A stretch of 64,000 nt of DNA, taken from Allostella sp. ATCC 35155 (GTDB lineage Bacteria; Pseudomonadota; Alphaproteobacteria; ATCC43930; Allostellaceae). The position numbers and the translations under genes are program-made. The stretch covers positions 186,001-250,000 of the forward strand of contig AP019701.1 in NCBI GenBank assembly GCA_006738865.1, read 5' to 3'. The notes under the pieces were generated by a model that saw nothing but the letters and a program-made list of their open reading frames with translations, searched no databases and was not told the DNA's origin. Of the stretch, positions 42,054-61,430 are shown piece after piece (position 1 is the stretch's first letter; every line of letters starts with the position of its first letter).

Positions 42054-42057
42054 TCCC

Positions 42058-43503: not shown

Positions 43504-43532
43504 CACCCGATTCCAAGATAGGAGGCGTCCCC

Positions 43533-44630
43533 ATGGTACGCCGGCTCTTCCTCCGCCTGTTCCTGATCCTGGCCTTTGCGCCCGCCGCATCGTCGGCCGC
43601 GGAACTCGACGAGGCCGGTCATCGCCGCCTCGTGGAGGCGGTCGCGACGCACTATGTCGTGCCGCGCTACGCGGCGCTGGAGACGGCGACGGCCGATCTC
43701 GATGCGGCGGCACGCGCCTTCTGCGCCGGTCCGGAGCGGACGCGGCTGGTCGAACTGCGGCGCCGCTACGGCGAGGCTTCGGATGCGTGGCAGCGCATCC
43801 AGCATGTCCGCTTCGGGCCGGTCGAATATTTCTCGCGTTCGGCCCGCTTCGCCTTCTGGCCCGATCCGCGCAACAGCGTCGGCCGTGCCCTGGCGGACCT
43901 CCTGAAGGCGGATGCCGGGCGGCTGGCGCCCGAGGCCTTCGGCCGCGGCAATGTCGCCGGGCAGGGCTTTCCGGCGCTCGAGCGCCTCGTCTTCGCCGAT
44001 GGTGCCGAAGACCGGCTCATGGCGGGGAACGCGGACGCCGGTCGCCGCTGCGCCGTCCTTGCGGCGATTGCGGCCAACCTCGCCCGCATGGCCGCCGACG
44101 TCCATCACGAGTGGGTCGGGGGCGACCGGCCGTTCCTGGAGGTGCTGCGCCATGCCGGCACCTCGGACTCGCCCTACCAGCATCCGCGCGAGGCGACCCT
44201 CGACTTCGTGAAGGCCCTGCACATGGCGGTCGAACTCGTCTCCGACCACAAGCTCGCGCGGCCGCTCGGCGCCACGCCGGCGGCGGCGCGGCCGCGCCTG
44301 GCGGAGGCCTGGCGCAGCGACCGCTCGCTCGCCAACGTCCGCATCGATCTCGCCGCCGGCGCGGAACTCTACGAGACCGGCTTCGCCGACGCGGTCCGTT
44401 CCCTCGGCGACGCGGCGCTCGACGACCTGATCCGCCGCGCCTTCGCCCAGAGCCGCGCCACCGCCGATCGCATCGCGCCGTCGCTCGAGGCGGCGGTCGC
44501 GGATGCCGGCGGCCGCGCGGAGGTCGAGCGGCTGGTGCAGGAGACGGCGGCGCTGAAGGCCCTGGTGGCGCAGCGGCTGACCGCGACCCTGGGCATCCCG
44601 CTCGGCTTCAACGCCCTCGACGGCGACTGA
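43533..44630 (+). CDS. Imelysin family protein (2)
   Basis: A 365-residue imelysin-type protein with a signal peptide (MVRRLFLRLFLILAFAPAASS). Landmarks are DAWQRIQHVRFGPVEYF (family acceptor helix), SARFAFWPDPRNSVGRAL, which replaces the GxHxxE of the IrpA type, and ADVHHEW near the middle. It is shorter than and clearly different from the first imelysin gene. It starts at ATG 43533 after GGAGG, 29 bp behind the di-haem gene. It probably forms part of a periplasmic iron-binding set with it and the DUF1513 protein. A strong inverted repeat follows the stop. Confidence 0.88.
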   Translation: MVRRLFLRLFLILAFAPAASSAAELDEAGHRRLVEAVATHYVVPRYAALETATADLDAAARAFCAGPERTRLVELRRRYGEASDAWQRIQHVRFGPVEYFSRSARFAFWPDPRNSVGRALADLLKADAGRLAPEAFGRGNVAGQGFPALERLVFADGAEDRLMAGNADAGRRCAVLAAIAANLARMAADVHHEWVGGDRPFLEVLRHAGTSDSPYQHPREATLDFVKALHMAVELVSDHKLARPLGATPAAARPRLAEAWRSDRSLANVRIDLAAGAELYETGFADAVRSLGDAALDDLIRRAFAQSRATADRIAPSLEAAVADAGGRAEVERLVQETAALKALVAQRLTATLGIPLGFNALDGD

Positions 44631-44677
44631 TGCCGGTTCCGAAGAGCGATGACTCATGGCGCTGGCCAGCGACTGTG

Positions 44678-44759
44678 CGTCCCTCGACTTCGCTCGGGAT
44701 GAGGTAGGCCATTGTTCAGATTAAGGATTTCCGCTCATCCCGAGCGAAGTCGAGGGACG
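44678..44759. repeat. 25-bp perfect inverted repeat (REP-like element)
   Basis: The arms 44678-44702 (starting CGTCCCTCGACTTCGC) and 44735-44759 are exact reverse complements, with a 32-bp AT-richer loop between them. It lies between the second imelysin and DUF1513 genes. The arm core CCCTCGACTTCGCTCGGG matches a dispersed palindrome that I recall from many high-GC proteobacterial genomes. Only one copy is seen in this window. It would form a long hairpin in RNA (possible terminator) or DNA. Confidence 0.85.
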
Positions 44760-44818
44760 CGACGGCATCAATGACGGGCCGTTCCGCTCCCACCGGATTT
44801 GGAATCAGGAGGCTCCCC

Positions 44819-45931
44819 GTGAATCGCGATCGTCGACGGATCCTCGCGGGCGGCCTCGCCGCCTGCTTCCTGCCGCGGCTCGCCCGGGCGCGCGCCGAGG
44901 CCCCGATCCGGCTGCTCGGCGCCCGGGTCGCGGCCGGCCGGCGCTTCTTCGCCACGGCCTTCGACGCCGAGGGCGAGGCCGCCTTCGACCTGCCGCTGCC
45001 GGCCCGGGGGCACGGCTTCGCCCAACGGCCGGGGCATGCCGAAGCCGTCGCCTGCGCCCGCCGGCCGGGAACCTGGCTCGCCGTCATCGACACGGCGTCC
45101 GGCCGCATCCGGCATCAGGTGCCCAATGCGGGCGAACGCCGCTTCAACGGCCACGGCGCCTTCTCGGCCGACGGCAGCCTCTTCTTCGCGACCGAGACCG
45201 ACCACGCGGCGGGGCGCGGCGTCGTCGGCGTCTATGCGGCCGACCGCGGCTACGCGCCGGTCGGTGCCTGGCCGTCGGGCGGGCTCGACCCGCACGATCT
45301 GCGCCTGTTGCCCGACGGGCGGACGCTGGTCGTCGCCAATGGCGGCATCGTCACGGATCTCGCGGCACCGCGCATGAAGCTGAACACCACGGGCATGGAT
45401 TCGAACCTGACCTATCTCGACGCCGGGACCGGGCGAATCCAGGACACGGTGCGGCCGCCGCCGGAACTGCGGTCGCTCGGCCTGCGCCATCTCTCCATCG
45501 CCGCGGACGGCAGTGTCTGCTTCGCCGCGCAGTACGAGGGGCCGGGCATCGACCTCGTGCCGCTGGTCGGAACGCATCGTCCCGGCGAGCGCGAACTGCG
45601 CTTCTTCGCGGCGCCGGCACCGGAGGTGCGGGCCATGCGGCAGTATTGCGGCAGCGCCGCGATCGACCATGGCGGGCGGGTTCTCGGCGTCTCCTCGCCG
45701 CGCGGCAACCGCGCCACCTTCTGGGACGTGGCCGACGGTCGCATCCTCGCCTCGGCGGAGATCGCGGACGGCTGCGGCATCGCGTGGCTGGCGGCGGGCC
45801 GCTTCGCCGTCGCCAGCGGCCTCGGCGGCGTGCGCGACGTGGAGGCCGCGAGCGGCGAGGGCGGGATGCTGCGCGGTGGGGCGGCCGTCGCCGGCCGCTG
45901 GGACAACCACCTGCTGACGCTCAGCGCCTGA
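44819..45931 (+). CDS. DUF1513 family protein (Tat-type signal)
   Basis: A 370-residue protein, probably a beta-propeller. The N-terminus has RDRRRILAGGLAACFL, which resembles a twin-arginine signal. The body shows repeated blade-like motifs (RRFNGHGAFSADGSLFFATE, DPHDLRLLPDGRTLVVANGG, LRHLSIAADGSVCFAAQYEG). DUF1513 proteins accompany imelysin and di-haem genes, as here, and may bind a metal or cofactor in the periplasm. GTG 44819 is chosen as start because AGGAGG lies 6 nt before it; the upstream ATG 44771 has no ribosome site. Its 3' end overlaps the convergent sulfatase by 11 bases. Confidence 0.88.
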   Translation: MNRDRRRILAGGLAACFLPRLARARAEAPIRLLGARVAAGRRFFATAFDAEGEAAFDLPLPARGHGFAQRPGHAEAVACARRPGTWLAVIDTASGRIRHQVPNAGERRFNGHGAFSADGSLFFATETDHAAGRGVVGVYAADRGYAPVGAWPSGGLDPHDLRLLPDGRTLVVANGGIVTDLAAPRMKLNTTGMDSNLTYLDAGTGRIQDTVRPPPELRSLGLRHLSIAADGSVCFAAQYEGPGIDLVPLVGTHRPGERELRFFAAPAPEVRAMRQYCGSAAIDHGGRVLGVSSPRGNRATFWDVADGRILASAEIADGCGIAWLAAGRFAVASGLGGVRDVEAASGEGGMLRGGAAVAGRWDNHLLTLSA

Positions 45932-47171
45932 CGGCGGCCGCCGTCGCCTCCAGGATCTGCTCGGCCGCCTCCACGGCGACGGCATCGCCGCTGTCGGCGC
46001 CGAGCTGGCGCATGCGTTCCGCCAGGCGGCGCAACGGACCGCGCGGCTGCGGCACGCGCTCCATCAGGTTGTGCTGCTCCCGCGGGTCGACGCGCAGATC
46101 GAAGATGGCCGGGGGGCGACCCTGGCGCAGGATCAGCTTGGCATCCGCGGTCCGCACGGCGCGATGGACCCGCACGCGTCCGTCCGGGTCCTGGTCGCCG
46201 CGTGTCTGGTTCTGCAGCAGCAGCGCGCTCCGCCAGGGATGGTCGTCGCCCTCCAGCAGCGGCAGCAGGCTGGCGCTCGGCCCGTCGCCCGCAGGGGCCG
46301 GCAGGCCGACCAGGGCGCGCATGGTGGGCGCCACGTCCATCAGCCCGACCAGATGGCGCGAGCGGCGACCGCCGTCCGGCAGGCCGCCCGGGGGGACGAG
46401 GATCATCGGAATGCGGACCGTCTCGTCGAGCAGGTTGCGCTTCAGGTTCTCCTCGTCGTCCAGCTGCATGCGCTGGCCGTGGTCGGAGCAGAAGACGACG
46501 GCCGTCCGCTGGGCGCGCCCGGAGCGATCGAGCGCGTCGAGCAACCGCCCGACGCAGTCGTCGATCGCACGGACGGCACCGAAGTAGCCCGGTCGCGGTG
46601 CCCCGCCGTGCGCAGCGCGATAGGCGCTCGGCGGATCGAACGGCGGATGGGGCGGGTAGTATGAAACCACCATGCAGAGCGGCCGGCGGCCGTCGTCGCG
46701 CTCCAGGACATCGATCGCCTGGGCGGTCTCGGCGAAGGGGCGATAGGTCTTGGGCCCCTCGGCGCCGCCGAGCCAGTGCGGCAGCTTGGAATTGTAGCCG
46801 CCCCAGACCTCGATGCCGGGCGGGGCTTCCTCCCCGAGGTGCCACTTGCCGATATAGACGGTGCGGTAGCCGGCCTCGGCGAGGTCGGGAAAGACCGAAC
46901 GGCTGCCGGTGACGGCCAGGGCGTCGGGTACCCGGTAGACGTTGTCCCTCACCCCGTGCTGGTGGGCGTAGAGCCCGGTCCACAGGGACGCGCGGGCGGG
47001 CGAGCAGATCGGCACCGGCGTGAAGGCCAGGGGAAAGAGCACGCCCCGCTCGGCGAGGCGGTCGAGATGCGGGGTCTGGACGTGGACGGCGCCGAGGCAG
47101 CCGAGCGTATCGGCCCGCTGCTGGTCGGTCATGACGACGAGGATGTCGGGACGATCGGGCATGGCGGCCAT
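45921..47171 (-). CDS. Sulfatase family hydrolase
   Basis: A 416-residue alkaline-phosphatase-fold sulfatase, with metal/active-site motif DILVVMTDQQRAD at the N-terminus. The formylglycine site CSPAR (C-x-P-x-R) follows a PVPI stretch about 60 residues in and fits the Cys-type activation signal. YIGKWHLG and FCSDHGQRM carry further metal ligands. No signal peptide is evident, so it may be cytoplasmic. ATG 47171 (MAAMPDR) or ATG 47162 (MPDRPDIL) are likely starts; the frame also allows TTG 47183 inside a palindrome. Substrate could be a sulfate ester, phosphonate or choline sulfate; this cannot be resolved. Confidence 0.88.
   Translation of the reverse strand: MAAMPDRPDILVVMTDQQRADTLGCLGAVHVQTPHLDRLAERGVLFPLAFTPVPICSPARASLWTGLYAHQHGVRDNVYRVPDALAVTGSRSVFPDLAEAGYRTVYIGKWHLGEEAPPGIEVWGGYNSKLPHWLGGAEGPKTYRPFAETAQAIDVLERDDGRRPLCMVVSYYPPHPPFDPPSAYRAAHGGAPRPGYFGAVRAIDDCVGRLLDALDRSGRAQRTAVVFCSDHGQRMQLDDEENLKRNLLDETVRIPMILVPPGGLPDGGRRSRHLVGLMDVAPTMRALVGLPAPAGDGPSASLLPLLEGDDHPWRSALLLQNQTRGDQDPDGRVRVHRAVRTADAKLILRQGRPPAIFDLRVDPREQHNLMERVPQPRGPLRRLAERMRQLGADSGDAVAVEAAEQILEATAAAVRR
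45930..45945. terminator. 16-bp palindrome at the convergent DUF1513/sulfatase ends
   Basis: GACGGCGGCCGCCGTC is a perfect palindrome covering the last bases of the DUF1513 stop and the sulfatase C-terminal codons. It may act as a GC hairpin end for both genes, as with the other convergent hairpins. Confidence 0.35.
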
Positions 47172-47176
47172 GGGTA

Positions 47177-47190
47177 CGGGCAATTGCCCG
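47177..47190. promoter_or_regulatory. Palindrome at the sulfatase start
   Basis: CGGGCAATTGCCCG (47177-47190) is a perfect 14-bp palindrome just upstream of the sulfatase ATG at 47171. On the minus strand a TATAGT box (47192-47197) precedes it, so the palindrome would lie at or just after the transcription start. Candidate operator. Confidence 0.35.
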
Positions 47191-47252: not shown

Positions 47253-48950
47253 TCAGGCGACCCACTCGGAGACCGGTGCCTTGGCGTCCTGCAGGGGCTG
47301 GGCGTGGATGTCGACCAGCGTCGGGCCGTCGGCTTCCAGGGCCTTGCGCAGCGTGCCTTCCAGGTCGGCTGGGTCCTTCACCGTCCAGGCCTTGACGCCG
47401 AACGCCTCGGCCACCTTGGCGTGGTCGGTGCGCGAGAAGTCGACCGAATAGTAGCGCGCGTCGAAGCCGGTCTTCTGGCCGGCCTTGATCCAGCCATAGA
47501 CGCTGTTCGAGAAGACGATCATCGTCAGCGGCACCTTCTGGCGCACGATCGTCTCCATCTCGCCGACCGTGAAGCCGAACGAGCCGTCGCCCATGATCGA
47601 CAGCACCTTCGAATGCGGCCGGCCGTACCAGGCACCGACCGCGGCCGACATGGAATAGCCGAGCGCGCCGTGGGCGCGGTTCGAGATGAAGTGGCGCCCC
47701 GCCTGCTTGAACTCGTAGTAGCCCGAGAAGTAGGGGCAGGGCGTGCCGGGATCGCAGACCAGCACGGCGTCGTTCGGCAGCAGCTTCTGCAGGGTGGCGA
47801 CCACCCGCTCGGGCCGGATCGGGGTCTCGTCCGAGGCGGCGAGCGCGGCGAAGGCGCCGAACTTCTCGCGCTTGGCCTTGGCGACGGCGGCGGCGTCGAG
47901 CAGCCGGCCCATGGCCGGGCGCGGCGCCGTCTTGACCGCGGCCAGGATCGCCTCCAGCGCCAGGCGCGCGTCCGACAGCATCGCCACCTCGGTCTTGTAG
48001 GTGGCGCCGAAGACGCCGGGGTCGGCGTCGATGTGGATGACCGGTGCCGAGCCCGGCAGCGGGTGCCGCCAGCGCTCGGTCGTGACCGAGCCGGCGCGGC
48101 AGCCGACGAAGACGACGAGGTCGGCCATGTCGACCAGCGCGCGCGTCATCGGCGTGCCGCCGTTAGAGCCGACGACGCCGGTCGCCAGCGGGTGGTCCTC
48201 GGGGATCGAGCCCTGGCCCGAGATGGTGGTCGCGACCGGCGCGCCCAGCCACTCGGCGAGCTGGGTCAGGGCCGCCTCGCCGCCGGCGATGACGACGCCG
48301 CCGCCGCAGATGAAGAGGGGGTTCTTCGCCGCCAGCAGGGCGTCGGCGGCGCGCGCCACCATCTCCGGGTCCGGTCCGAAGCGGCGCGAGGGGAAGCTGC
48401 CGAGCGAGCGGTCGGCCCAGACGTCGGCCTCGTCGACCGGGTCCTTCTGCACGTCGAAGGGCAGGCCGATATGGGCCGCGCCCGGCTTGGCGCTGGTCAT
48501 GTGGGTGAAGGCCGAGCGCACGACCTTGGGGATGTCGACGGCGCGGTTGAGGACGCGGTTCCACTTCGCCAGCGGGCGGAACATCGCCTCCTGGTCGAGC
48601 TCGGTCAGCGTGTAGCGGCCGCGGCCGCCGACCGAGATGTCGGTCGTCACGGCGAGGATCGGAATCGAGGACTCGTTGGCCTCGACGACCCCGGGAAGAA
48701 TATAGGTGGCGCCGCCGCCGGACGGGCCTTCGCAGATGCCGACCTTGCCGGTGACGCGGGCATAGCCGTCCGCCATGTAGCCGGCCGAGCGCTCGTCGCG
48801 CGTCAGGATATGGGTCATGCCATGGTCGAGGCGGTAGAGCGCGTCGTACAGCGGCAGGCTGGTATCGCCGCACAGGCCGAAGACGTGCTTGACGTCATGC
48901 CCCTGCAGCAACCGGACGAAGGCTTCGGCGCCGGAAAGCTGGTTGCTCAT
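47253..48950 (-). CDS. Acetolactate-synthase-like TPP-dependent enzyme
   Basis: A 565-residue three-domain TPP enzyme. The catalytic Glu is in LTRDERSAGYMADGYARV (about residue 50). A middle domain follows (LFICGGGVVIAGGEAAL). The TPP-binding motif is GDGSFGFTVGEMETIV...MIVFSN in the C-terminal domain. The FAD-binding residues typical of true acetolactate synthases cannot be confirmed, so decarboxylase, ligase or acetyltransferase activity are all possible. The start MSNQLSG at 48950 follows AAGGGA by 8 nt. It is divergent from the FCD-GntR gene, with a GTATAC site between them. This arrangement suggests direct control by that regulator. Confidence 0.9.
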   Translation of the reverse strand: MSNQLSGAEAFVRLLQGHDVKHVFGLCGDTSLPLYDALYRLDHGMTHILTRDERSAGYMADGYARVTGKVGICEGPSGGGATYILPGVVEANESSIPILAVTTDISVGGRGRYTLTELDQEAMFRPLAKWNRVLNRAVDIPKVVRSAFTHMTSAKPGAAHIGLPFDVQKDPVDEADVWADRSLGSFPSRRFGPDPEMVARAADALLAAKNPLFICGGGVVIAGGEAALTQLAEWLGAPVATTISGQGSIPEDHPLATGVVGSNGGTPMTRALVDMADLVVFVGCRAGSVTTERWRHPLPGSAPVIHIDADPGVFGATYKTEVAMLSDARLALEAILAAVKTAPRPAMGRLLDAAAVAKAKREKFGAFAALAASDETPIRPERVVATLQKLLPNDAVLVCDPGTPCPYFSGYYEFKQAGRHFISNRAHGALGYSMSAAVGAWYGRPHSKVLSIMGDGSFGFTVGEMETIVRQKVPLTMIVFSNSVYGWIKAGQKTGFDARYYSVDFSRTDHAKVAEAFGVKAWTVKDPADLEGTLRKALEADGPTLVDIHAQPLQDAKAPVSEWVA

Positions 48951-48975: not shown

Positions 48976-49003
48976 TTGCTCGTCATACGTCTCTGTATAC
49001 AAT
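48976..49003 (+). promoter_or_regulatory. Promoter/operator of the GntR gene (GTATAC site 1)
   Basis: TGTATACA (48994-49001) lies in the 63-bp gap between the TPP-enzyme and GntR starts. It overlaps a plus-strand -10 box TACAAT (48998-49003) with TTGCTC (48976-48981) 16 bp upstream. An FCD-GntR dimer bound here would block the -10 box, an autoregulation design. The same GTATAC core occurs at 54119, 59292 and 59392. Confidence 0.55.
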
Positions 49004-49013
49004 GCGGCCGGCA

Positions 49014-49766
49014 ATGGAAAGACAACCCCTCGGCCGCCCCCGGCCCCGACCCCAGCGTCGAGCCCGCCCGCAGGCGAACCTGTCGGAACGCGCCTACGAG
49101 CAGCTGCGGACGATGGCCATCACCTATCAGTTCCGGCCGCTGGAGCGCCTGGCGGAAGCCGATCTGTGCCGCCGCCTCAAGGTCAGCCGCACCCCGATCC
49201 GCGAGGCGCTGAACCGTCTCGTCACGGAAGGCTTCCTCGTCTTCACCCCGAACCGGGGCTTCCAGTGCCGCCCGCTCGACGCCAAGGAGATCTTCGACCT
49301 CTACGAGGTGCGGCGCTCGCTCGAGGTGGCGGCGGTGCGCCTCGCCGCCGAGCGCGCGACCGACGCCGAGCTGGAGGAACTGGACCAGTTCCTGCGCGCC
49401 AGCCGGGCCGCGCCGGCCGAAGCCTCGGTGGTCGATCTCGTCGGCCTGGACGAGGCCTTCCACGAGCGCATCGCCGGCTTCTCGCGCAATTCCGAGCTGC
49501 TGCACATCCTGCGCAACATCAACGCCCGCATCCGCTTCTGCCGCTGGATCGACATGGAGAACGGCCGCCGCGCCGCGACCCAGACCGAGCATGCCGAGGT
49601 GCTGGCGGCTCTCGTCGCCCGCGACGCGGAGCGCTGCGCGGAGATCATGACCGGCCATATCACCCGCCGGCTCGACCAGATCGTCGACGTCATCCGCGAG
49701 GGCTATGCCCGCATCTACATGGGCGCCTATGCCGGCGCCGAAACCGGCCGCTCGCGCGCCGGCTGA
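49014..49766 (+). CDS. GntR family regulator, FCD subgroup
   Basis: A 250-residue regulator. The N-terminal winged helix runs from LSERAYEQLRTMAITYQF to SRTPIREALNRLVTEGFLV (about residues 25-75). The C-terminal FCD domain contains YEVRRSLEVAAVRLAAE, ...DEAFHERIAGFSRN (metal-site Asp/His) and TEHAEVLAALVARD (second His), so the ligand pocket with a metal is intact. Such proteins usually bind organic acids and repress catabolic genes. The start is taken at 49014; 49002 is in frame but lies at the predicted -10 box. It probably controls its divergent TPP-enzyme gene and other units that carry GTATAC sites. Confidence 0.92.
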   Translation: MERQPLGRPRPRPQRRARPQANLSERAYEQLRTMAITYQFRPLERLAEADLCRRLKVSRTPIREALNRLVTEGFLVFTPNRGFQCRPLDAKEIFDLYEVRRSLEVAAVRLAAERATDAELEELDQFLRASRAAPAEASVVDLVGLDEAFHERIAGFSRNSELLHILRNINARIRFCRWIDMENGRRAATQTEHAEVLAALVARDAERCAEIMTGHITRRLDQIVDVIREGYARIYMGAYAGAETGRSRAG

Positions 49767-49819: not shown

Positions 49820-51211
49820 ATGGCGACGCGCGGTTCCGGTCCGCTGACCGAGGCTTGGGCCAAACTGGTGGCGGGCTTCTCCGCCGATTCCGTGCCCGCC
49901 GACGTGCGGGCGCGGGCGATTCAGATGATCCTCGACGGCAGCGGTGCGCTGCTCGCCGCCTCCGACCCGAAGATCTCGACCGGCCGGCGCATCGCCGGCT
50001 TCGTCGAAGGGCTGGGCGGGGCGCCGCAGGCCAGCATCGTCGGCCACGGCTTCCGCACCAGCGTCGTCAATGCCGCGCTCGCCAACGGCACCATGGGCTA
50101 TGCCTGCGACGTCGAACCGCACCACCCGGAGGGCGTGCTGCACCCGATCGCGGTCATGGTGCCGGCGGCGCTGGCGCTGGCCGAGCATCTCGGCAAGCCG
50201 GGCAAGGATCTGGTCGCGGCCGTCATCCTCGGCTGCGAACTGGAGTACCGGCTGTCGATGGCGCTGGGCCCGGTCGAGCAGTACAATCTCGGCTTCCATC
50301 CGTCGGCCGTCTGCGGCTGCTTCGGCGCCACCGCGGCGGCGGCCTTCCTGCTCGGCCTCGACGCCGACCAGACGACCAAGGCGCTCGGGCTGGCCGGCTG
50401 CCAGGCCTCCGGCCTGATGGCGTGGGAGTCGGACGAGACGGAGAACTCGCGCCCGTTCCAGATGGGCATGGCGGCGCGCAACGGCGTCACCGCGGCGATG
50501 CTGGCGTCCCAGGGCTTCGGCGGCCCGCTCGGCATCTTCGACCACGGCCATACGGTCTTCGGCGCCTTCAGCCGCAATCCCGCGCAGCACCACCTGACCG
50601 ACGAGCTCGGCACGCGCTGGGACGGCATCATGGAGCTGGCGATCAAGCCCTACTCCAGCGTCTCCTTCCTCCATCCGGGCCTCGACACGCTGCTCGGCAT
50701 CGCCCGCGCGAACAAGCTGGCGATCGAGGATGTCGATTCGATCGTCCTGCGCTTCCCGTCGTCGGGCACCCACTGCATCGACGACAACCCGCTGAAGAGC
50801 CACTGCGCGCAGTACATCCTGCCGGTGGCGCTGTCGAAGGAGGGGCTGCGCGTCGCCGACCTCTTCACCGACCGCCGCCTCTCCGACCCCGAGGTCGCAC
50901 GCCTGTCGGGGCGCGTCACGGTGGTCAAGGACGACGAGCTCGATAAGGGCTTCCCCAACCTCTACGACACGATCGTCGAGGTGAAGACCAGGGCCGGCCA
51001 GACCTACTCGGAGAAGAACGGCATCGCCCGCGGCTATCCCGAGGCGCCGCTGAGCGAGGCCGAGGTGCGGGCGAAGTTCGACCGCCTGACCGCGGCGGTC
51101 GCGGGTCCCAAGCGCAGCGCCGACCTTGCGGCCGCGATCGAGGGCCTGTGGAGCGCCCCCGGCGTCGGCACCTATGCCGCGCTCATGGGCGCCAAGCCGG
51201 ACCACGCGTGA
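49820..51211 (+). CDS. MmgE/PrpD family protein
   Basis: A 463-residue protein of the 2-methylcitrate dehydratase/iminodisuccinate epimerase superfamily. Landmarks are ANGTMGYACDVEPHHPEGVLHP (active-site His region), GFHPSAVCGCFGATAAAAFLLG and LAIKPYSSVSFLHPGLDTL. The first stretch matches the catalytic loop of the family (NxxxxHxxD-like). One-base overlap with the aspartate-dehydrogenase-like gene (TGATG) couples the two. Members act on dicarboxylates or their imines, which fits the partner, but the reaction here is unknown. CGGAG is about 9 nt upstream of ATG 49820. Confidence 0.9.
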   Translation: MATRGSGPLTEAWAKLVAGFSADSVPADVRARAIQMILDGSGALLAASDPKISTGRRIAGFVEGLGGAPQASIVGHGFRTSVVNAALANGTMGYACDVEPHHPEGVLHPIAVMVPAALALAEHLGKPGKDLVAAVILGCELEYRLSMALGPVEQYNLGFHPSAVCGCFGATAAAAFLLGLDADQTTKALGLAGCQASGLMAWESDETENSRPFQMGMAARNGVTAAMLASQGFGGPLGIFDHGHTVFGAFSRNPAQHHLTDELGTRWDGIMELAIKPYSSVSFLHPGLDTLLGIARANKLAIEDVDSIVLRFPSSGTHCIDDNPLKSHCAQYILPVALSKEGLRVADLFTDRRLSDPEVARLSGRVTVVKDDELDKGFPNLYDTIVEVKTRAGQTYSEKNGIARGYPEAPLSEAEVRAKFDRLTAAVAGPKRSADLAAAIEGLWSAPGVGTYAALMGAKPDHA

Positions 51212-52026
51212 TGGCGCGGCTCCGGGTCGGGCTGGCGGGCTTCGGCAGCGTCGGGCAGTTCCTCGCCCGGCGCCTCGACGAGGGCGCCCTGCCGCAGGTC
51301 GAGCTGACGGCGATCACCGCGCGCGACCTCGAGAAGGCGGCGGCGAACGCGGCCGGCCTCGCGATCAAGCCGCGCATCGTGCCGCTCGCCGAGCTGCCGG
51401 CGCTGGCCGACGTCGTCGTCGAGTGCGCCACCGCCGACTCCTTCCCGGAGGTCGCGCGCACGGTGCTCGAGGCTGGGCGGACGCTGGTGGCGCTCAGCGC
51501 CGGCGGCGTGCCGGCCTTCCCGGACATGGTCGATTTCGCCGAGCGCCATGGCGGCCGCATCCGCATCGCCAGCGGCGCCCTGCCGGGCCTCGATTCGATC
51601 CGATCGGCGGCGGAAGGGACGATCCGCGAGGTCCGCCTCTTCTCGCGGATCAAGCCCGGCTCGTTCATCGGGGAGGAGTATCTCGAAAGCCGTGGCTTCG
51701 ACTTCCGGCAGCCGCCGGCGGCGGCGGTCAAGGTGTTCGAGGGCTCGGCCGGGGAGGCGGCGGCCGCCTTCCCGCGGCACTTCAACGTTGCCATCTCACT
51801 CAGCCTCGCCGGCATCGGCTTCGACCGCACGCGCGTCGAGATCTGGGCCGACCCCGATATCCCGGGCGCCATCCACACGGTCGAGGTCGAGGCGGACGAG
51901 ATCGTGCTGTCCCTGACGAGCCGCAACCGGCCGTCGGCCACCAACCCCAAGACCAGCCGCATCATCGCCCCCAGCGTGCTGGCGGCGCTGCGCTCCATGG
52001 TCGCGCCGCTGCACGTCGGGAGCTGA
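51211..52026 (+). CDS. L-aspartate dehydrogenase-like protein (DUF108 family)
   Basis: A 271-residue NAD(P)-dependent dehydrogenase. The nucleotide-binding motif is LRVGLAGFGSVGQFLARRL, with ATADSFPEVARTVLEAGR and LSAGGVPAFPD next. The C-terminal DUF108 domain carries FPRHFNVAISLSLAGIGFDRT, matching the active-site Asn/His region of AspDH. Such enzymes interconvert oxaloacetate/iminosuccinate and L-aspartate, and many act in NAD or D-aspartate metabolism. Directly behind the MmgE/PrpD gene, it may reduce or oxidise an imino-dicarboxylate. A 13-bp hairpin with one mismatch overlaps its end and the convergent gene. Confidence 0.9.
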   Translation: MARLRVGLAGFGSVGQFLARRLDEGALPQVELTAITARDLEKAAANAAGLAIKPRIVPLAELPALADVVVECATADSFPEVARTVLEAGRTLVALSAGGVPAFPDMVDFAERHGGRIRIASGALPGLDSIRSAAEGTIREVRLFSRIKPGSFIGEEYLESRGFDFRQPPAAAVKVFEGSAGEAAAAFPRHFNVAISLSLAGIGFDRTRVEIWADPDIPGAIHTVEVEADEIVLSLTSRNRPSATNPKTSRIIAPSVLAALRSMVAPLHVGS

Positions 52027-52033
52027 TGAGGGA

Positions 52034-52063
52034 GGCGGGGGTCAGCGCAGGCTGACCTCCGCC
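52034..52063. terminator. 13-bp hairpin between convergent genes
   Basis: GGCGGGGGTCAGC (52034-52046) and GCTGACCTCCGCC (52051-52063) pair with one mismatch around GCAG. The stem covers the stop codon of the PNPOx-like gene (52042). No T-run. Confidence 0.5.
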
Positions 52064-52527
52064 ACCTTGTCGCGATACTCCTTCTTCGGATCGGCGCCGA
52101 ACAGCATCTTGATGCCGGCGATCAGGCTCGATGCGTCGAGCCAGATCTCCGCCCGCTCGGGGTCGAAGCGCAGCAGGGTCAGCTTCGGGTCGTCCTTGCC
52201 GCCCTCGTACCAGGCGGCGACGAAGCGGTTCCACAGCCGGTCGATGACGGCCCGGTCATTGTCGACCGACAGGCTGCCATGGACCGTCGCGAAGAGGTCG
52301 TGCCCCTTGTCGGCGAAGGTGGCAATCGCCCGGTTGCCCTTCGGCAATGCCTGGACGATGCCGTTGTCGCGGGCGGTGAAGAACCAGATCGGGCCGCTTT
52401 CGTCCTCGAACTGCGCGGTCATCGGGTGCGCATGCCCGTCCTCCACCCCGTCGATGCCGAGCATCATCGTTCGGTCCGAGGCGAGCGCCTTCCAGAACTT
52501 CGCCTCGATCTCCTGCGGTGTCGCCAT
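52042..52527 (-). CDS. Pyridoxamine-phosphate-oxidase-fold (general stress) protein
   Basis: A 161-residue flavin-binding split-barrel protein. MMLGIDGVEDGHAHPMTAQF is the first strand pair. DNGIVQALPKGNRAIATFADKGHDLFATVHG is the flavin-contact stretch of the general-stress-protein-26 subgroup. The C-terminal WLDASSLIAGIKMLFGAD matches that group too. These proteins bind FMN or FAD and have no settled reaction. It is a single gene convergent with the AspDH-like gene. Confidence 0.9.
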   Translation of the reverse strand: MATPQEIEAKFWKALASDRTMMLGIDGVEDGHAHPMTAQFEDESGPIWFFTARDNGIVQALPKGNRAIATFADKGHDLFATVHGSLSVDNDRAVIDRLWNRFVAAWYEGGKDDPKLTLLRFDPERAEIWLDASSLIAGIKMLFGADPKKEYRDKVAEVSLR

Positions 52528-52596: not shown

Positions 52597-54054
52597 TCAG
52601 GCGTACTCGTGCAGCGGCGCGAAGCGGAAGGGCAGGCGGGCCAGGTCGACGCCGGCCGGACCGGGCGTATCGACCTCGACGAAGGCGCGGCAGACCGGCC
52701 CGTAGGCGGCGCGGAAATGGTTCTTCGCCTTGATGCAGAAGAGCCGGACCTGGGCGAGGTCGATCCCGTGCAGGTCCATGTAGCCAAGGTCGTTCACCGG
52801 CTCGCGCTTCTCGGTGACGATGATGTCGACCTGCCCGACGCGCAGCACGGCGGTATGGCCGAGCCGCGTCTCGACGCCGCGCAGCATCGGCCCGCGATTG
52901 ACGAAGACGCCGTCCGTCAGGCGCACCACTTCGGCGTCGATCGGCACCGGCGGGCCGAAATCCCCCGTGATGCGGCCGCCGAGCGTGCCCCGGACGCGGC
53001 CGCCCACACCGGCCTCCCGGGCGCGGGCGACCGTCGCCGGGTCGAAGAAGAAGGCGAAGATACTGGGCTCGGCGGGGGCGAGGTCGAGCAGCGCCTGCAG
53101 CAGGCCGGGCGTGTCGGCGATCCCGCCCGAATAGATGTTGTCGGCGGCCTCGACGACGGCGACCGGGCCGGTGCCGAGCGCCAGCGCCTGCCGCAACCCT
53201 TCCTCCGGGCCCGGACGGACCACGGCGAATTCGGGCGCCTTGCGCCGGATCGCCTCCGCCATCGTCTCGGCGGCGCGGCGGGCCGCGTCATGGTCGCCGT
53301 CGGCGTAGACCATGACCGAGGCGCCGGTGTTGGGCGTGTCCGCCCAGGGGAAGCCGCCGAAGGGCGTGACGTCGAGGATCGGGCCCTGCGTCAGGTCGCG
53401 GGCGATCGCCTCCAGGTCCTTCATCGGCCCGTCGGCCGTCCGCATGTTGTGGCTGTGGATGATGCGGCCGGCCCGCAGGATGACGCCCGTCGGCTTCAGC
53501 CGCCCCTCGACGGTGGCGACGAGCATCCCCAGCACCTTCTCGCCGACCTCGAACATGTCGATGTGGGGCAGCGTCTTGTAGCCGGCCGCGACGTCCGCGA
53601 TGTCCGCGATCTCGGGCGCCATGTTGGCGTGCATGTCGAAGCTGGCGCCGATCGGGACGGGTCCGACGGTCGCGCGCACCATCCGCAGTACGTCGAGGTC
53701 GGGCGTGCGCCGCCGTTCGGTCGCCAGCGCCCCGTGCAGCGACAGGTAGACGGCGTCCCAGCGCCGCGCCGCCAGGCCCGCACGCACCTCCTCCAGGAAG
53801 GCGTCGAAGAGGCCGTCATCCATCGGGCCGCCCGGCTGGGCCGCGGCGCAGCGGAGAACCTCGACCTGCCAGCCGGGGTTGGCGTCGGCGAAGGCCGCGA
53901 CGGCGCCGAGTTCGGTCGGCGTGCCGCGGAAGCGGTCGAGGACGGCGGGGCCGGCCGCCCATTCGCTGTTCTCGAAATCGGCCAGCACGCTCGGCACCGG
54001 CGAGAAGGAATTGACCTCGAGCCAGATGCGGGCGACGGCGAGTGTGCGCGGCAT
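52597..54054 (-). CDS. M81 family metallopeptidase (MlrC-like)
   Basis: A 485-residue two-domain hydrolase. The N-terminal MlrC domain has AVARIWLEVNSFSP, the metal-type VYLSLHGAL and GASFDMHANM, and PHIDMFEVGEKV with further His/Asp ligands. The C-terminal DUF1485 domain begins near GPVAVVEAADNIYSGG. The family is named from microcystinase C, which cuts a linear peptide or amide, and many relatives are found with dipeptide-type ABC transporters, as here. The start is ATG 54054, divergent from the ABC receptor with GTATAC site 2 between them. It may hydrolyse the imported compound in the cytoplasm (no signal peptide). Confidence 0.9.
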   Translation of the reverse strand: MPRTLAVARIWLEVNSFSPVPSVLADFENSEWAAGPAVLDRFRGTPTELGAVAAFADANPGWQVEVLRCAAAQPGGPMDDGLFDAFLEEVRAGLAARRWDAVYLSLHGALATERRRTPDLDVLRMVRATVGPVPIGASFDMHANMAPEIADIADVAAGYKTLPHIDMFEVGEKVLGMLVATVEGRLKPTGVILRAGRIIHSHNMRTADGPMKDLEAIARDLTQGPILDVTPFGGFPWADTPNTGASVMVYADGDHDAARRAAETMAEAIRRKAPEFAVVRPGPEEGLRQALALGTGPVAVVEAADNIYSGGIADTPGLLQALLDLAPAEPSIFAFFFDPATVARAREAGVGGRVRGTLGGRITGDFGPPVPIDAEVVRLTDGVFVNRGPMLRGVETRLGHTAVLRVGQVDIIVTEKREPVNDLGYMDLHGIDLAQVRLFCIKAKNHFRAAYGPVCRAFVEVDTPGPAGVDLARLPFRFAPLHEYA

Positions 54055-54189: not shown

Positions 54190-55782
54190 ATGGCGCGCTT
54201 GCGTACGTTGGTGGCCGGCACGGCCGGAATCCTGTTGGCTTCGGCACTGGCCGGAGAGACCCTGGCGCAGGCGCCGACGCCTGCGCGCGGCGGCACGATG
54301 AACATCATCATCTCGCCCGAACCGCCGACCCTGATGCTCGGCATCAACCAGACGACGCCCGCCGCCATCGTCGGCGGCAAGATCTACGAGAGCCTGCTGC
54401 GCTACGACCTCGACCTGAAGCCGATGCCGGGCCTCGCCAAGTCCTGGACGGTATCGCCGGACGGCAAGACCTACACCTTCAAGCTGCAGGAAGGGGTGAA
54501 GTGGCACGACGGCAAGCCCTTCACGGCGGACGATGTCGTCTTCAGCGCCAAGACCTACCTGACGACGACGCATCCGCGCTCGCGGCCGATCTTCCAACGC
54601 GCCGAGGAAATCTCCGCACCCGACCCGCTGACGGTCGTCTTCAAGCTGAAGGGGCCGTTCGCACCCTTCATCATGGCCTGGGAGCCGAGCACGGCGCCGA
54701 TCGTGCCGAAGCACATCTACGAGGGCACCGACTTCCGCGCCAATCCCGCCAACGCCAAGCCGATCGGGACCGGGCCCTTCAAGCTGAAGGAGTGGGTGCG
54801 CGGGTCGCACATCCATCTCGTGCGCAACGACGACTACTGGCAGAAGGGCAAGCCCTACCTCGACGACATCTACTACCGGGTGCTGCCGGACGCGAGCGCG
54901 CGCGTCGTCGCCATGGAGACCGGCCAGACCCACCTCTCGGCCTTCGCCGACATCGAGACCTTCGAGGTGCCGCGGCTGAAGGCGATGCCGCACCTGGAGA
55001 TGACGACCAAGGGCTACGAGTACCTCGCCCAGATGGTCTGGCTCGACTTCAACCTGCGCAAGCCGCCCTTCGACGACCGGCGCTTCCGCCAGGCGGTCTA
55101 CCATGCGATCGACCGCAACTTCCTGCGCGACCGGGTCTGGTTCGGGCTCGGCAAGCTGGCGACGGGGCCGATCCATTCCAGCATCCCGCACTACGACGCC
55201 AACGTGCCGGAATACCCCTTCGACCCGAAGAAGGCGGAGGCCCTGCTCGACGAGATGGGCCTGAAGCGCGGGTCGGACGGCGTGCGCGCCCGGGTGACGA
55301 TGGACCAGCTGCCCTATGGCGACGTCTATGTCCGCGCGGGCGAGTACATCCGCCAGGCCCTCGGCCGCGTCGGCATCCAGGTGTCGCTGCGCAGCGCCGA
55401 CGTGGCGACCTGGGGCGACCGGGTGCGGAACTGGGACTACGACATGACGCTCCAGGTGCTGAGCCAGCTCGGCCATCCGGCGCTCGGTGTCTCCCGGCTC
55501 TACATCTCCAGCAACATCCGCAAGGGCGTGCTCTTCAGCAACGTCAACGGCTACACCAACCCGCGGATCGACGAGCTCTTCGACAAGGCGGCGGTCGCCG
55601 CCGACCCGAAGCAGTCGCAGGCGATGTACAGCGAGATCCAGCGCATCCTCGTCGGGGACGTGCCGGTCGCATGGCTGCTCGAGCTCGAATTCCCGACCTT
55701 CGTCGACAAGCGCTTCCGCAACGTCGTCACCTCCGCGATCGGCGTGCGCGACGGCTTCGCCGACGTCTACATGCAGCGCTGA
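54190..55782 (+). CDS. Dipeptide/nickel-type ABC transporter receptor (SBP_bac_5)
   Basis: A 530-residue periplasmic receptor with signal peptide (MARLRTLVAGTAGILLASAL, cut after LAQ near residue 27). Family block VKWHDGKPFTADDVVFS, with GTGPFKLKEWVRG and NDDYWQKGKPYLDDI, is typical of peptide/oligopeptide receptors, which also bind opines, nickel or other amides. It is the first gene of an ABC operon with two permeases and a fused ATPase, directly across from the M81 peptidase gene. Ligand unknown; the M81 partner points to a peptide-like or amide compound. Confidence 0.93.
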   Translation: MARLRTLVAGTAGILLASALAGETLAQAPTPARGGTMNIIISPEPPTLMLGINQTTPAAIVGGKIYESLLRYDLDLKPMPGLAKSWTVSPDGKTYTFKLQEGVKWHDGKPFTADDVVFSAKTYLTTTHPRSRPIFQRAEEISAPDPLTVVFKLKGPFAPFIMAWEPSTAPIVPKHIYEGTDFRANPANAKPIGTGPFKLKEWVRGSHIHLVRNDDYWQKGKPYLDDIYYRVLPDASARVVAMETGQTHLSAFADIETFEVPRLKAMPHLEMTTKGYEYLAQMVWLDFNLRKPPFDDRRFRQAVYHAIDRNFLRDRVWFGLGKLATGPIHSSIPHYDANVPEYPFDPKKAEALLDEMGLKRGSDGVRARVTMDQLPYGDVYVRAGEYIRQALGRVGIQVSLRSADVATWGDRVRNWDYDMTLQVLSQLGHPALGVSRLYISSNIRKGVLFSNVNGYTNPRIDELFDKAAVAADPKQSQAMYSEIQRILVGDVPVAWLLELEFPTFVDKRFRNVVTSAIGVRDGFADVYMQR

Positions 55783-55846
55783 TGCCGGCAGCACAGGCGG
55801 GGCGGCGGGCGGCGACGCCCGCCGCACTCCGAGGGAAGAGGGGGTC

Positions 55847-56824
55847 GTGGAGCGGCTGGAATACATCGCCCAGCGGTTGTTGAAGGGCGTCCTGGTGCTG
55901 ATCGGGATCGTCGTCCTCAACTTCCTGCTGATCCGGCTGGCGCCGGGCGACCCCGCGGCCGTGATGGCCGGCGAGGCCGGCGCGGCGGACGAACTATTTC
56001 TCCAGCAGCTGCGGCAGCAGTTCGGCCTCGACCGGCCGCTGTGGGAGCAGCTCTGGGCCTACCTGTCCAACATCCTCTCGTTCGATTTCGGCTTCTCCTA
56101 CCGGCAGCAGCGGCCGGTGATCGACCTGCTGGCGGAGCGGCTGCCCCCGACCCTGCTGCTGACGGGCACCGCCTTCGTGCTGTCGCTCGCGGCCGGCGTC
56201 ACCCTGGGGGTGATGGCGGCACGCCGCGCCGGGCGCTGGTCGGACTCCGCGATCACCGTGGTGGCGCTCTTCTTCTATGCGACGCCGCTCTTCTGGGTCG
56301 GGCTGATGGGCGTCTTTCTCTTCTCGGTCACGCTGGGCTGGCTGCCCGCCTTCGGCATGGCCTCGGTCGGCGTGACGCTGACCGGCTTCGACCACGTGGC
56401 CGATCTCGCCCGCCATCTCCTCATGCCGGCGCTGACGCTGGCCCTCTTCCACATGGCGGTCTACGCCCGCATGACGCGCGCCTCGATGCTCGAGGTCCGC
56501 GACCAGGACTTCGTGCGCACGGCCCGGGCCAAGGGGGTGGGGGAGGGGCGCATCCTGCGCCGCCACGTCCTGCGCAATGCCATCCTGCCAGTCGTGACCA
56601 TCGCCGGCATGAAGGCGGGCTATCTCCTCGGCGGCTCGATCGTGGTCGAGACGGTGTTCGCCTGGCCCGGCATCGGGCGGCTCGCCTACGAAGCGGTGCT
56701 GCAGCGCGACTACAACGTGCTGCTGGGGGTCTTCCTGGTGACGTCGGCGGTCGTCATCGCCGTCAACCTGGCAACCGACGTGGTCTATTCCCTCGTCGAT
56801 CCGCGCATCGAGCTCGGGGCCTAG
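55847..56824 (+). CDS. Dipeptide-type ABC permease, DppB-like
   Basis: A 325-residue permease with six membrane helices. The N-terminus has the DppB-type block NFLLIRLAPGDPAAVMAG, then a large periplasmic loop. The EAA motif is RMTRASMLEVRDQDFVRTAR/AKGVGEGRILRRHVLRNAILP, through which the ATPase contacts the permease. No ATG fits; GTG 55847 lies behind GAGGGAAGAGGGGG. It follows the receptor by 64 bp and precedes the second permease by 6 bp. Confidence 0.9.
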   Translation: MERLEYIAQRLLKGVLVLIGIVVLNFLLIRLAPGDPAAVMAGEAGAADELFLQQLRQQFGLDRPLWEQLWAYLSNILSFDFGFSYRQQRPVIDLLAERLPPTLLLTGTAFVLSLAAGVTLGVMAARRAGRWSDSAITVVALFFYATPLFWVGLMGVFLFSVTLGWLPAFGMASVGVTLTGFDHVADLARHLLMPALTLALFHMAVYARMTRASMLEVRDQDFVRTARAKGVGEGRILRRHVLRNAILPVVTIAGMKAGYLLGGSIVVETVFAWPGIGRLAYEAVLQRDYNVLLGVFLVTSAVVIAVNLATDVVYSLVDPRIELGA

Positions 56825-56830
56825 CCGGCG

Positions 56831-57667
56831 ATGACCGAGTTCTGGCGGCGCTACCGCCGCAACAAGGGCGCGGTGGCGGGGCTCGTCGTCCTCGCGCTCA
56901 TCCTGCTGGTGGCGGCCCTGGGGCCGCTCGCTTGGCCCGGCAGCCCCTGGGACATGGCCGGGGTACCGTTCCAGCCGCCCTTCTCGGCCGAGCACCCGCT
57001 CGGCACCGACACGCTCGGCCGCGACGTCGCCACCGGGATCGTCCACGGCGCCCGGGTCTCGCTCCTGATCGGCTTCGTCGCGACCTTGGCGGCGCTCGGC
57101 GTGGGGGTGGTGGTCGGCGCCGTCGCCGGCTATTTCGGCGGGCGGGTCGACGATGTCGCGATGCGCCTGACCGAGTTCTTCCAGACCATCCCGAGCTTCG
57201 TCTTCGCGGTCGTGCTCGTTGCCATCTTCACGCCCGGCATCGGCTCGATCGTGGCCGCGATCGCCACGGTGAGCTGGCCGGCGGTGGCCCGGCTGGTACG
57301 CGGCGAGTTCCTCACCCTGCGGACGCGCGAGTTCGTCCAGGCCTCGGTCGTGCTCGGGCGCTCGGCGCGGCACATCATCTTCGTCGAGATCCTGCCCAAC
57401 GCCATCTCGCCCATCATCGTCTCGGGCTCGTTGATGGTGGCGACGGCGATCCTCGTCGAATCCTCGCTCAGCTTCCTCGGCCTTGGCGACCCCAACATGA
57501 TGAGCTGGGGCTACATGATCGGCGCCTCCCGGTCGGTGGTGCGGCTCGCCTGGTGGTGCAGCTTCTTCCCCGGCCTCGCCATCCTCCTGACCGTCCTTGC
57601 CCTCAACCTGGTCGGCGAGGGGCTGAGCGACGCGCTCAACCCGCGCCTGTCGCGGGAAGGCCGATGA
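56831..57667 (+). CDS. Dipeptide-type ABC permease, DppC-like
   Basis: A 278-residue permease with a cytoplasmic start FWRRYRRNKGAVAGLVVLAL and six membrane helices. HPLGTDTLGRDVATGIVHGARVSLLIG is the DppC hallmark. The EAA motif is near REFVQASVVLGRSARHIIFVEILPNAISP. It ends with an ATGA overlap with the ATPase gene, so stoichiometric translation is expected. It pairs with the DppB-like permease upstream. Confidence 0.94.
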   Translation: MTEFWRRYRRNKGAVAGLVVLALILLVAALGPLAWPGSPWDMAGVPFQPPFSAEHPLGTDTLGRDVATGIVHGARVSLLIGFVATLAALGVGVVVGAVAGYFGGRVDDVAMRLTEFFQTIPSFVFAVVLVAIFTPGIGSIVAAIATVSWPAVARLVRGEFLTLRTREFVQASVVLGRSARHIIFVEILPNAISPIIVSGSLMVATAILVESSLSFLGLGDPNMMSWGYMIGASRSVVRLAWWCSFFPGLAILLTVLALNLVGEGLSDALNPRLSREGR

Positions 57668-59277
57668 CGACCGAGCCGCTGCTCCGCGTCCGCGACCTGC
57701 GGGTGGCGCTGCCGGCGGGCGGCGACCGGGCGAACGCGGTCGACGATGTCGGTTTCGACCTGGCGGCCGGCGAGATCCTCTGCATCGTCGGCGAGTCCGG
57801 GTCGGGCAAGTCCCTCACCGCCTCGGCCATCATGGGCCTCCTGCCGCGCTCCGTCCGGGTCGCGGGTGGCTCGGTCGAACTCGGCGGCACCGACCTCCTG
57901 CGCCTCTCGGAGGACGAGATGCGCGACCGCCGCGGGCGCCTCGTCGGCATGATCTTCCAGGAGCCGATGACCGCGCTCAATCCGCTGATGCGGGTCGGCG
58001 ACCAGATCGACGAGGTGCTGGCGGTCCATACCGACCTGCCGGAGGCCGCGCGCCGGCAGCGGGTGGTCGAGCTGATGGCCAGCGTCAACCTGCCCGACCC
58101 CGAGCAGCTGCGGCAGGCGTTCCCGTTCCGCCTCTCCGGCGGCCAGCGCCAACGGGTGATGATCGCGATGGCCCTGGCGCTGGGCCCGTCGCTGCTGATC
58201 GCCGACGAGCCGACGACCGCGCTCGACGTCACGACCCAGAAGCAGATCCTGGCGCTCATCAGGCAGGTCCAGGCCGAGCGCGGGATGGGCGTGCTCTTCA
58301 TCACCCACGATTTCGGCGTCGTCGCCGAGATCGCCGACCGGGTGGCGGTGATGCAGCATGGCCGGCTCGTCGAGATCGGCCCCGTCGCGCAGGTCCTGAA
58401 CCGGCCGGAGCATCCCTATACGCGCTCCCTCATCGCGGCCGTGCCGCGGCTGGAGCCGCGCGCCGCGCGCGTGGTCGACGGCGTCCCGACCCTGGTCGCC
58501 CGGGCACTGACCAAGACCTACCGCACCGCGGGCGGCCTCTTCGTCCGCCGCCGCGTCGTCGAGGCCGTGAAGTCGGTCGATCTCGAGATCCGGCAGGGCG
58601 AGACCCTGGGCGTGGTCGGCGAGTCCGGCTCCGGCAAGTCGACGCTGGGGCGGCTCCTGGTGCGCCTGCTGCCGGCCGACGGCGGGTCCGTCGCGTTCCG
58701 CGGCACCGACCTGCTGACCGCGCCGCCGGGTCGCCTTCGGGCGCTGCGGCGTGACGTGCAGATGGTGTTCCAGGATCCCTATGCCTCGCTCAATCCGCGT
58801 CGGCGGATCGGCGCCATCGTCGCGGACGGGCTCCTCGCCCAGGGGCGGCCGCGGGCGGAGGCGCTGGCGCGCGCCGCCGAACTGCTGGGGCTGGTCGGCC
58901 TCGATCCCGCGGGCGTCGACCGCTATCCGCACGAATTCTCCGGCGGGCAACGCCAGCGCATCGGGATCGCGCGGGCGCTGGCGCTGGAGCCGAAGCTGCT
59001 GATCGCCGACGAACCGGTATCGGCGCTCGACGTCTCGGTCCAGGCCCAGGTGCTGGACCTTCTCAACGACGTCCGGCGGCGCTTCGACCTCGCGATGCTG
59101 TTCATCACCCACGACCTCCGCGTGGCGGCCCAGGTCTGCGACCGGATCGCCGTCATGCGCCGGGGCGAGATCGTCGAGACCGGCCCGACCGCGGCGATCT
59201 TCGGCGCCCCGCAGCATCCCTATACCCGCGAGCTGCTCGATGCCGTTCCGGGCCGCGGCTGGGTCGCTCCGGCCTGA
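57664..59277 (+). CDS. Fused dipeptide-type ABC ATPase (DppD-DppF in one chain)
   Basis: A 537-residue protein with two complete nucleotide-binding domains. Domain 1 has Walker A GESGSGKS (about 41-48), signature LSGGQRQRV, Walker B LLIADEP and His-switch FITHDF. Domain 2 repeats these as GESGSGKST (about 320), FSGGQRQRI, LLIADEP and FITHDL. Both also carry the HPYTR(S/E)L tail of oligopeptide ATPases near the ends (EHPYTRSLI; QHPYTRELL). Both sites look catalytically intact. This is the fused form of the two ATPases that are separate genes in E. coli. Last gene of the ABC operon. Confidence 0.96.
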   Translation: MTTEPLLRVRDLRVALPAGGDRANAVDDVGFDLAAGEILCIVGESGSGKSLTASAIMGLLPRSVRVAGGSVELGGTDLLRLSEDEMRDRRGRLVGMIFQEPMTALNPLMRVGDQIDEVLAVHTDLPEAARRQRVVELMASVNLPDPEQLRQAFPFRLSGGQRQRVMIAMALALGPSLLIADEPTTALDVTTQKQILALIRQVQAERGMGVLFITHDFGVVAEIADRVAVMQHGRLVEIGPVAQVLNRPEHPYTRSLIAAVPRLEPRAARVVDGVPTLVARALTKTYRTAGGLFVRRRVVEAVKSVDLEIRQGETLGVVGESGSGKSTLGRLLVRLLPADGGSVAFRGTDLLTAPPGRLRALRRDVQMVFQDPYASLNPRRRIGAIVADGLLAQGRPRAEALARAAELLGLVGLDPAGVDRYPHEFSGGQRQRIGIARALALEPKLLIADEPVSALDVSVQAQVLDLLNDVRRRFDLAMLFITHDLRVAAQVCDRIAVMRRGEIVETGPTAAIFGAPQHPYTRELLDAVPGRGWVAPA

Positions 59278-59879: not shown

Positions 59880-59883
59880 CCCT

Positions 59884-61395: not shown

Positions 61396-61430
61396 TTTCC
61401 CGGACCATCGAGAAAGAGGAGGGCCCGAAC

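Follow-up and report, generated by a model that had tools for sequence, protein, structure and literature searches.

A conserved MmgE/PrpD–aspartate dehydrogenase gene module in Allostella and other alphaproteobacteria, probably for breakdown of an unusual aspartate-like amino acid

The stretch analysed here (the window) is 64,000 nucleotides of Allostella sp. ATCC 35155 and corresponds to positions 186001–250000 of a 5.34-Mb single-contig genome. It contains two overlapping genes of the same orientation, coding for a 463-residue protein of the MmgE/PrpD superfamily and a 271-residue protein of the aspartate dehydrogenase (AspDH) family. The TGA stop codon of the first (51209–51211) and the ATG start codon of the second (51211) have a single A in common, giving the sequence TGATG within ...CACGCGTGATGGCG..., and the coupling of the two genes noted in an earlier, sequence-only reading of this DNA is confirmed. 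The same reading placed a thiamine diphosphate (ThDP, TPP) enzyme, an M81 protein and a DUF1445 protein nearby, and all three are present. The genes and features are as follows:

47253–48950 (−): ThDP (TPP)-dependent enzyme, acetolactate-synthase-like (PF02775, PF00205, PF02776)
48993–49002 (no strand assigned): operator-like box CTGTATACAA, the sole match in the window to TTGTATACAA (one mismatch; 0.04 expected)
49014–49766 (+): GntR/FCD transcriptional regulator, upstream of the MmgE gene and in the same direction (PF00392, PF07729)
49820–51211 (+): MmgE/PrpD-superfamily protein, predicted two-base epimerase (H108/Y155; PF03972, PF19305, residues, model match to 2hp3)
51211–52026 (+): AspDH-family oxidoreductase of a distinct clade (PF01958, PRK13302, tree, clade residues)
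52042–52527 (−): PNPOx-like gene, between the AspDH and M81 genes
52597–54054 (−): M81/MlrC-type metallopeptidase family protein (PF07364, PF07171)
54190–59277 (+): oligopeptide (Opp)-type ABC importer (SBP_bac_5), with substrate-binding protein (SBP) 54190–55782, permeases 55844–56824 and 56831–57667, and ATPase 57664–59277, all (+)
59421–62411 (+): tripartite tricarboxylate transporter, with TctB 59421–59879, TctA 59884–61395 and TctC 61431–62411 (PF03401)
62437–63255 (+): DUF1445/UPF0317 protein (D-Glu_cyclase family), putative hydro-lyase (PF07286; PDB relatives 3db9 and 2pif)

The first protein of the pair belongs to the MmgE/PrpD superfamily both by its Pfam domains (PF03972, 203 bits, E=5e-60; PF19305, 91 bits, E=8e-26; both over cut-off) and by its fold. 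It does not reach the threshold of the NCBIfam PrpD (2-methylcitrate dehydratase) equivalogs, scoring 21–27 bits against cut-offs of 458–950. The structure model (mean pLDDT 88) has iminodisuccinate epimerase as its best match (2hp3, TM 0.86) and also matches CAD and PrpD structures; since the scores of iminodisuccinate epimerase, bsIRG1 and CAD are similar, a function assigned from the nearest PDB relative was rejected. The proposed bases of iminodisuccinate epimerase are H99 and Y145 (PMC7347537), an additional Tyr is the mark of two-base members of the family (PMC12290011), and mammalian CAD is without this Tyr base (PMC7347537; PMC12290011). In sequence alignment H108 and Y155 fall at the H99 and Y145 positions and are invariant in all 24 orthologs, such that the protein carries both the catalytic His and the additional Tyr. 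The Tyr base also occurs in about half of the distant MmgE proteins (30 of 57), B. subtilis ‘IRG1’ among them; it is expected for an epimerase and is not proof of epimerisation. H160, K276 and H285 are retained, and R211, Q214 and E99-P100 stand in place of the usual Lys, His and Asp-Asp. Arg211 is found in 24/24 orthologs, whereas Lys occupies this position in 50 of the 57 distant proteins and in iminodisuccinate epimerase, bsIRG1 and CAD; the family's carboxylate-binding set, which includes this first Lys (K202 of the P. aeruginosa isomerase), is thus incomplete here. The protein is predicted to be a two-base epimerase with carboxylate-pocket residues of its own.

Another related enzyme is the (S)-(R)-methylsuccinate isomerase of the PA0881 type, a member of the same superfamily for which a His/Tyr two-base mechanism is proposed, and whose gene also lies in a catabolic cluster for a substituted succinate (PMC12290011). 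The isomerase gene adjoins itaconate/methylsuccinate CoA genes, of which the present module has none. Roughly one in five prokaryote species carries MmgE/PrpD homologs, most of them uncharacterised; the substrates of all characterised members have a four-carbon 1,4-dicarboxylate core in common (PMC12290011).

The second protein matches PF01958 (91 bits, E=6e-26) and scores 256.1 bits with the NCBIfam model PRK13302, just above its cut-off of 253, and therefore has both the Asp_DH_C domain and an above-threshold match to an L-aspartate dehydrogenase model. Its structure model (mean pLDDT 89) best matches the AspDHs 2dc1 (A. fulgidus, TM 0.74) and 1j5p (T. maritima, TM 0.72), and it resembles these L-aspartate dehydrogenase/NadX proteins in fold, NAD-binding domain, Asp_DH_C domain and NPKT motif. 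In the AspDH tree, however, it falls into a separate, MmgE-linked clade, which is long-stemmed and supported at 100/100. Across this clade, positions that the other AspDHs of its order and class keep have changed, from A-N to R189-H190, from R to G219 and from G to S249, and A120 and P125 are further differences from L-aspartate dehydrogenase/NadX. His222 is the equivalent of the catalytic His189 of A. fulgidus AspDH and is present here and in most clade members, but is lost in three (L094, L097 and G095). The L094 and L097 proteins have Met at this position. The AspDH of P. aeruginosa is PA3505. The sequence-only reading described AspDH as acting on iminosuccinate/oxaloacetate; the family assignment stands, but with the protein in a diverged clade, plain L-aspartate/oxaloacetate cannot be assumed as its substrate.

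The pairing of these genes recurs beyond this one genome. A contig scan with six MmgE orthologs as queries identified 27 ortholog loci with 59–91% best-segment identity (next matches at most 39%), nearly all of them alphaproteobacterial. Because L078/L105 and L090/L091 are near copies, and L083, L088, L089 and L098 are contigs also found in the genome searches, the number of independent loci is slightly below 27. An AspDH gene is present at 21 of the 27, and at 16 it is the next gene downstream on the same strand; where the starts can be called, the two genes mostly have a stop/start overlap and are otherwise no more than 20 bp apart. Six loci have no AspDH gene nearby, and two of these (L092 and L102) end at or inside the MmgE gene. 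Among 53 more distant MmgE loci there is not one with this AspDH, M81 or DUF1445. Of 385 genomes sampled evenly over the class, only four have the MmgE subfamily (G000, G095, G108 and G128), and AspDHs of at least 55% identity occur in exactly these four, including G095, where the two genes are on separate contigs and the AspDH keeps the clade residues. Identical sets of four would arise by chance with a probability of about 1e-9 if labels are taken as independent, with genome kinship uncorrected. Spacing, ortholog loci and class-wide co-occurrence all indicate that the pairing is more than chance, and that the module is real, conserved and recurring across distantly related alphaproteobacteria.

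Several neighbouring genes recur with the pair, as counted by tblastn and gene clustering over 29 loci (the 27 loci, the window and a Shinella record). The ThDP enzyme is present at 11 of the 29, DUF1445 at 10 and M81 at nine, and large and small subunits of aconitase X (AcnX) are found at about 11; either AcnX or DUF1445 is present in most of the fuller clusters. TctC is also among the recurring genes, and the full Opp importer set is present in L105 as well. In L099 the genes for AcnX, ThDP enzyme, a protein like the Asp/Glu racemases, SDR, MmgE and AspDH are consecutive, and an alanine racemase gene adjoins AcnX. In Shinella sp. PSBB067 (Rhizobiaceae) MmgE, AspDH and ThDP enzyme genes are contiguous, accompanied by an ABC importer of the polar-amino-acid type and by a regulator of the FCD type. 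Parts of polar-amino-acid importers are also present at L079–L082, a DadA-like oxidase at L078/L105, and an Asp/Glu-racemase-like protein (NCBIfam PRK07475), which has no PDB relative by sequence, at six MmgE loci and in four further Stella clusters (see below). L094/L097 code for an ectoine-hydrolase-like M24 protein that scores below its NCBIfam cut-off; there, the M24 gene and one for a small protein with no Pfam match precede the MmgE-AspDH pair. A DUF6917 protein is encoded beside the clusters at L077, L078, L083, L085 and L105. The PNPOx-like gene was dropped as a module member, since a single further Stella species was found to have it.

The operator-like box lies between the divergently oriented ThDP and GntR genes, and occupies the equivalent place in the Stella-type loci L042, L044/L088 and L102. 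In L078/L105 and L085 it is located upstream of GntR. Two other Stella species have a second copy ahead of TctB, and in L078/L105 there is a copy between the SBP and DUF1445 genes; no second TTGTATACAA copy was found within the window. These placements link the ThDP enzyme, GntR-MmgE-AspDH, TctBAC and DUF1445, and the module genes are probably co-regulated, with the local GntR protein a candidate for binding the box. The grouping of genes put forward in the sequence-only reading thus corresponds to a conserved and probably co-regulated module, given its recurrence in other loci and the common box.

Stella contains a second AspDH gene (G000:C1:2265567), whose product is 68% identical to the first and lies inside the MmgE-linked clade. 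It is part of a second cluster (L039, G000:C1:2255600–2275500) together with genes for AcnX, a racemase-like protein, an SDR, a TAXI-TRAP transporter and a VOC protein, a gene set shared by each of the genus's four genomes (the comparison genomes include three others of the genus, one of them, by its locus, Stella (Allostella) vacuolata ATCC 43931). L067/L089 combine parts of the two Stella clusters in one locus, and the second cluster may be the missing half of a shared pathway. From cis-3-hydroxy-L-proline, type-I AcnX forms an imine by dehydration, which a reductase then reduces (PMC8184944, PMC5144071), and the presence of AcnX together with AspDH would parallel this arrangement. In the relatives and in the second Stella cluster, as in the known AcnX system (LhpI), an AcnX family member has as neighbours a gene for an amino/imino acid oxidoreductase linked to NAD(P)H and genes of the racemase type, although the present AcnX consists of two separate subunits, reaches 260 bits where the LhpI cut-off is 700, and has an AspDH-like partner. 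Separately, a distant AspDH-like gene (about 31% identity) at L041 (G000:C1:4868600–4888500) has a further ThDP enzyme, an SDR, a GMC oxidoreductase and an Opp importer as its neighbours, and an association of AspDH-like and ThDP genes therefore recurs outside the MmgE-linked clade.

We propose catabolism of an unusual aspartate-like amino acid as the probable function of the MmgE-AspDH module. The common C4-dicarboxylate core of MmgE/PrpD substrates, taken with an AspDH family acting on an amino-C4-dicarboxylate, points to a substituted or non-L aspartate, and we put at about even (roughly 0.5) the chance that this is a catabolic module for an aspartate-related amino-dicarboxylate other than plain L-aspartate, in which epimerase, dehydrogenase and ThDP enzyme act in that order. 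A precursor would be imported and, where needed, hydrolysed by the M81 protein; the MmgE/PrpD protein would epimerise a carbon adjoining a carboxylate through His108 and Tyr155 to give the stereoisomer accepted by AspDH; and the modified AspDH would oxidise the amine to an imine/2-oxo acid (or reduce an imine that a dehydratase supplies). The 2-oxo acid from the AspDH step would then be cleaved or decarboxylated by the ThDP enzyme, which is a natural next enzyme if that acid is other than plain oxaloacetate. A hydroxylated form may be dehydrated by DUF1445 in Stella, or by two-subunit AcnX elsewhere and in the second Stella cluster. The order and overlap of the genes, their conservation and co-occurrence, the residues and the operator-like box are observations; the reactions, with their order, direction and substrate, are all inferred. 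The stereochemistry-related neighbours – the Asp/Glu-racemase-like protein, the alanine racemase of L099 and the DadA-like oxidase of L078/L105 – support the proposal. Against it stand the loss of the His222 equivalent in three members of the AspDH clade and the six MmgE loci without a nearby AspDH gene. Moreover, the accessory genes vary by locus (AcnX or DUF1445; M81 or other hydrolases), so a single common substrate is not certain and the loci may serve different ones. The acidic amino acid of the sequence-only reading accords with the racemase families, the polar-amino-acid importers and the two epimerase bases; its further specification as N-substituted or D-configured goes beyond these findings, and that interpretation is partly supported.

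Several more specific explanations must be weighed against this proposal. The substrate could be at least one stereoisomer of 3-hydroxyaspartate, with AcnX or DUF1445 forming iminosuccinate, AspDH acting as an imine reductase to give L-aspartate, and MmgE and the racemase-like protein adjusting stereochemistry. The dehydration of cis-3-hydroxy-L-proline by type-I AcnX is equivalent (PMC8184944, PMC5144071), a dehydratase candidate is present in most fuller clusters, and loss of the canonical His in some AspDH clade members would fit imine reduction; but the scheme leaves the ThDP enzyme without a role and the altered AspDH residues speak for a substrate different from plain iminosuccinate, and we consider it rather unlikely. 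An iminosuccinate-like intermediate, and the reduction of it, would be a feature in common with the beta-hydroxyaspartate cycle. The known enzymes of that cycle (BhcB/BhcD) are of families other than those here. Catabolism of D-aspartate (or D-glutamate), with MmgE as racemase, AspDH deaminating the L-form to oxaloacetate and DUF1445 as D-glutamate cyclase, is less probable still. The racemase-family and DadA-like neighbours and the polar-amino-acid importers of related loci are in keeping with it, as is the Pfam name of DUF1445, which the sequence-only reading had also adopted. That protein does belong to the PF07286 family, but it scores 265.6 against a cut-off of 324 with the nearest NCBIfam model (putative hydro-lyase), and D-glutamate cyclase, which would turn D-Glu into 5-oxo-D-proline, is therefore a family name only; moreover, the AspDH clade is diverged, and oxaloacetate needs neither a ThDP enzyme nor a dehydratase.

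Degradation of iminodisuccinate or ethylenediamine-disuccinate (EDDS)-type compounds, both named as test substrates in the sequence-only reading, would make MmgE an iminodisuccinate epimerase and AspDH the enzyme removing the released aspartate. The Agrobacterium epimerase (PDB 2hp0/2hp3) is indeed the nearest solved structure, with the same fold and His/Tyr bases and with K276 and H160 in common, but identity is only about 25%, its K, H and D-D correspond to R211, Q214 and E99-P100 here, and no aspartase/fumarase-type C-N lyase is among the genes at 45.9–63.4 kb, all of which are accounted for. The differing pocket and the lack of this lyase make such substrates very unlikely. The least credible alternative is that AspDH is an ordinary NadX providing iminosuccinate for NAD synthesis, with MmgE an unrelated neighbour. 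It accords with AspDH family membership, but the NadX model TIGR03855 scores 130.3 against a cut-off of 206.6, there are no nad genes among those identified at 45.9–63.4 kb, and, in contrast to L-aspartate dehydrogenase/NadX with its ties to NAD genes, this separate clade has a conserved link to MmgE and is tied to the ThDP enzyme and AcnX/DUF1445.

The enzyme families are known, but the module as a set is apparently undescribed. As the sequence-only reading anticipated, the literature collection searched gave no described pathway with this gene set, no published description of the module, and no paper pairing MmgE or aconitase X with aspartate dehydrogenase. Our fuller and more tentative suggestion, which we hold somewhat short of even odds, is of an undescribed catabolic route to which an unusual aspartate-like amino acid is the substrate: an MmgE/PrpD epimerase of new specificity would be followed by a re-specialised AspDH and the ThDP enzyme, with two-subunit AcnX and DUF1445 as interchangeable dehydratases. 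If true, it would provide first functions for bacterial two-subunit AcnX, for DUF1445/UPF0317 in this setting and for the AspDH clade; no established substrate for bacterial two-subunit AcnX or bacterial DUF1445 was found in the literature and databases searched. With these families in a conserved and apparently co-regulated module next to a dehydrogenase whose expected substrate is an amino-dicarboxylate, the search for substrates narrows to a short list, and several uncharacterised families become testable together.

Sulfatase-family genes are located on both outer sides of the region, at 45921–47183 (−) and 63443–64000 (+, running off the window). The first comes immediately after the ThDP gene, with which it shares its strand, and was not seen at that position in other Stella species; both were dropped as module members, as neither was recovered beside the module in relatives. 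Further left, at 40758–45931, is a run of four genes that by eye are imelysin-like, di-haem-peroxidase-like, imelysin-like and DUF1513-like, and that looks like an operon of the iron-uptake type; it is conserved adjoining the ThDP gene in Stella relatives and in L102.
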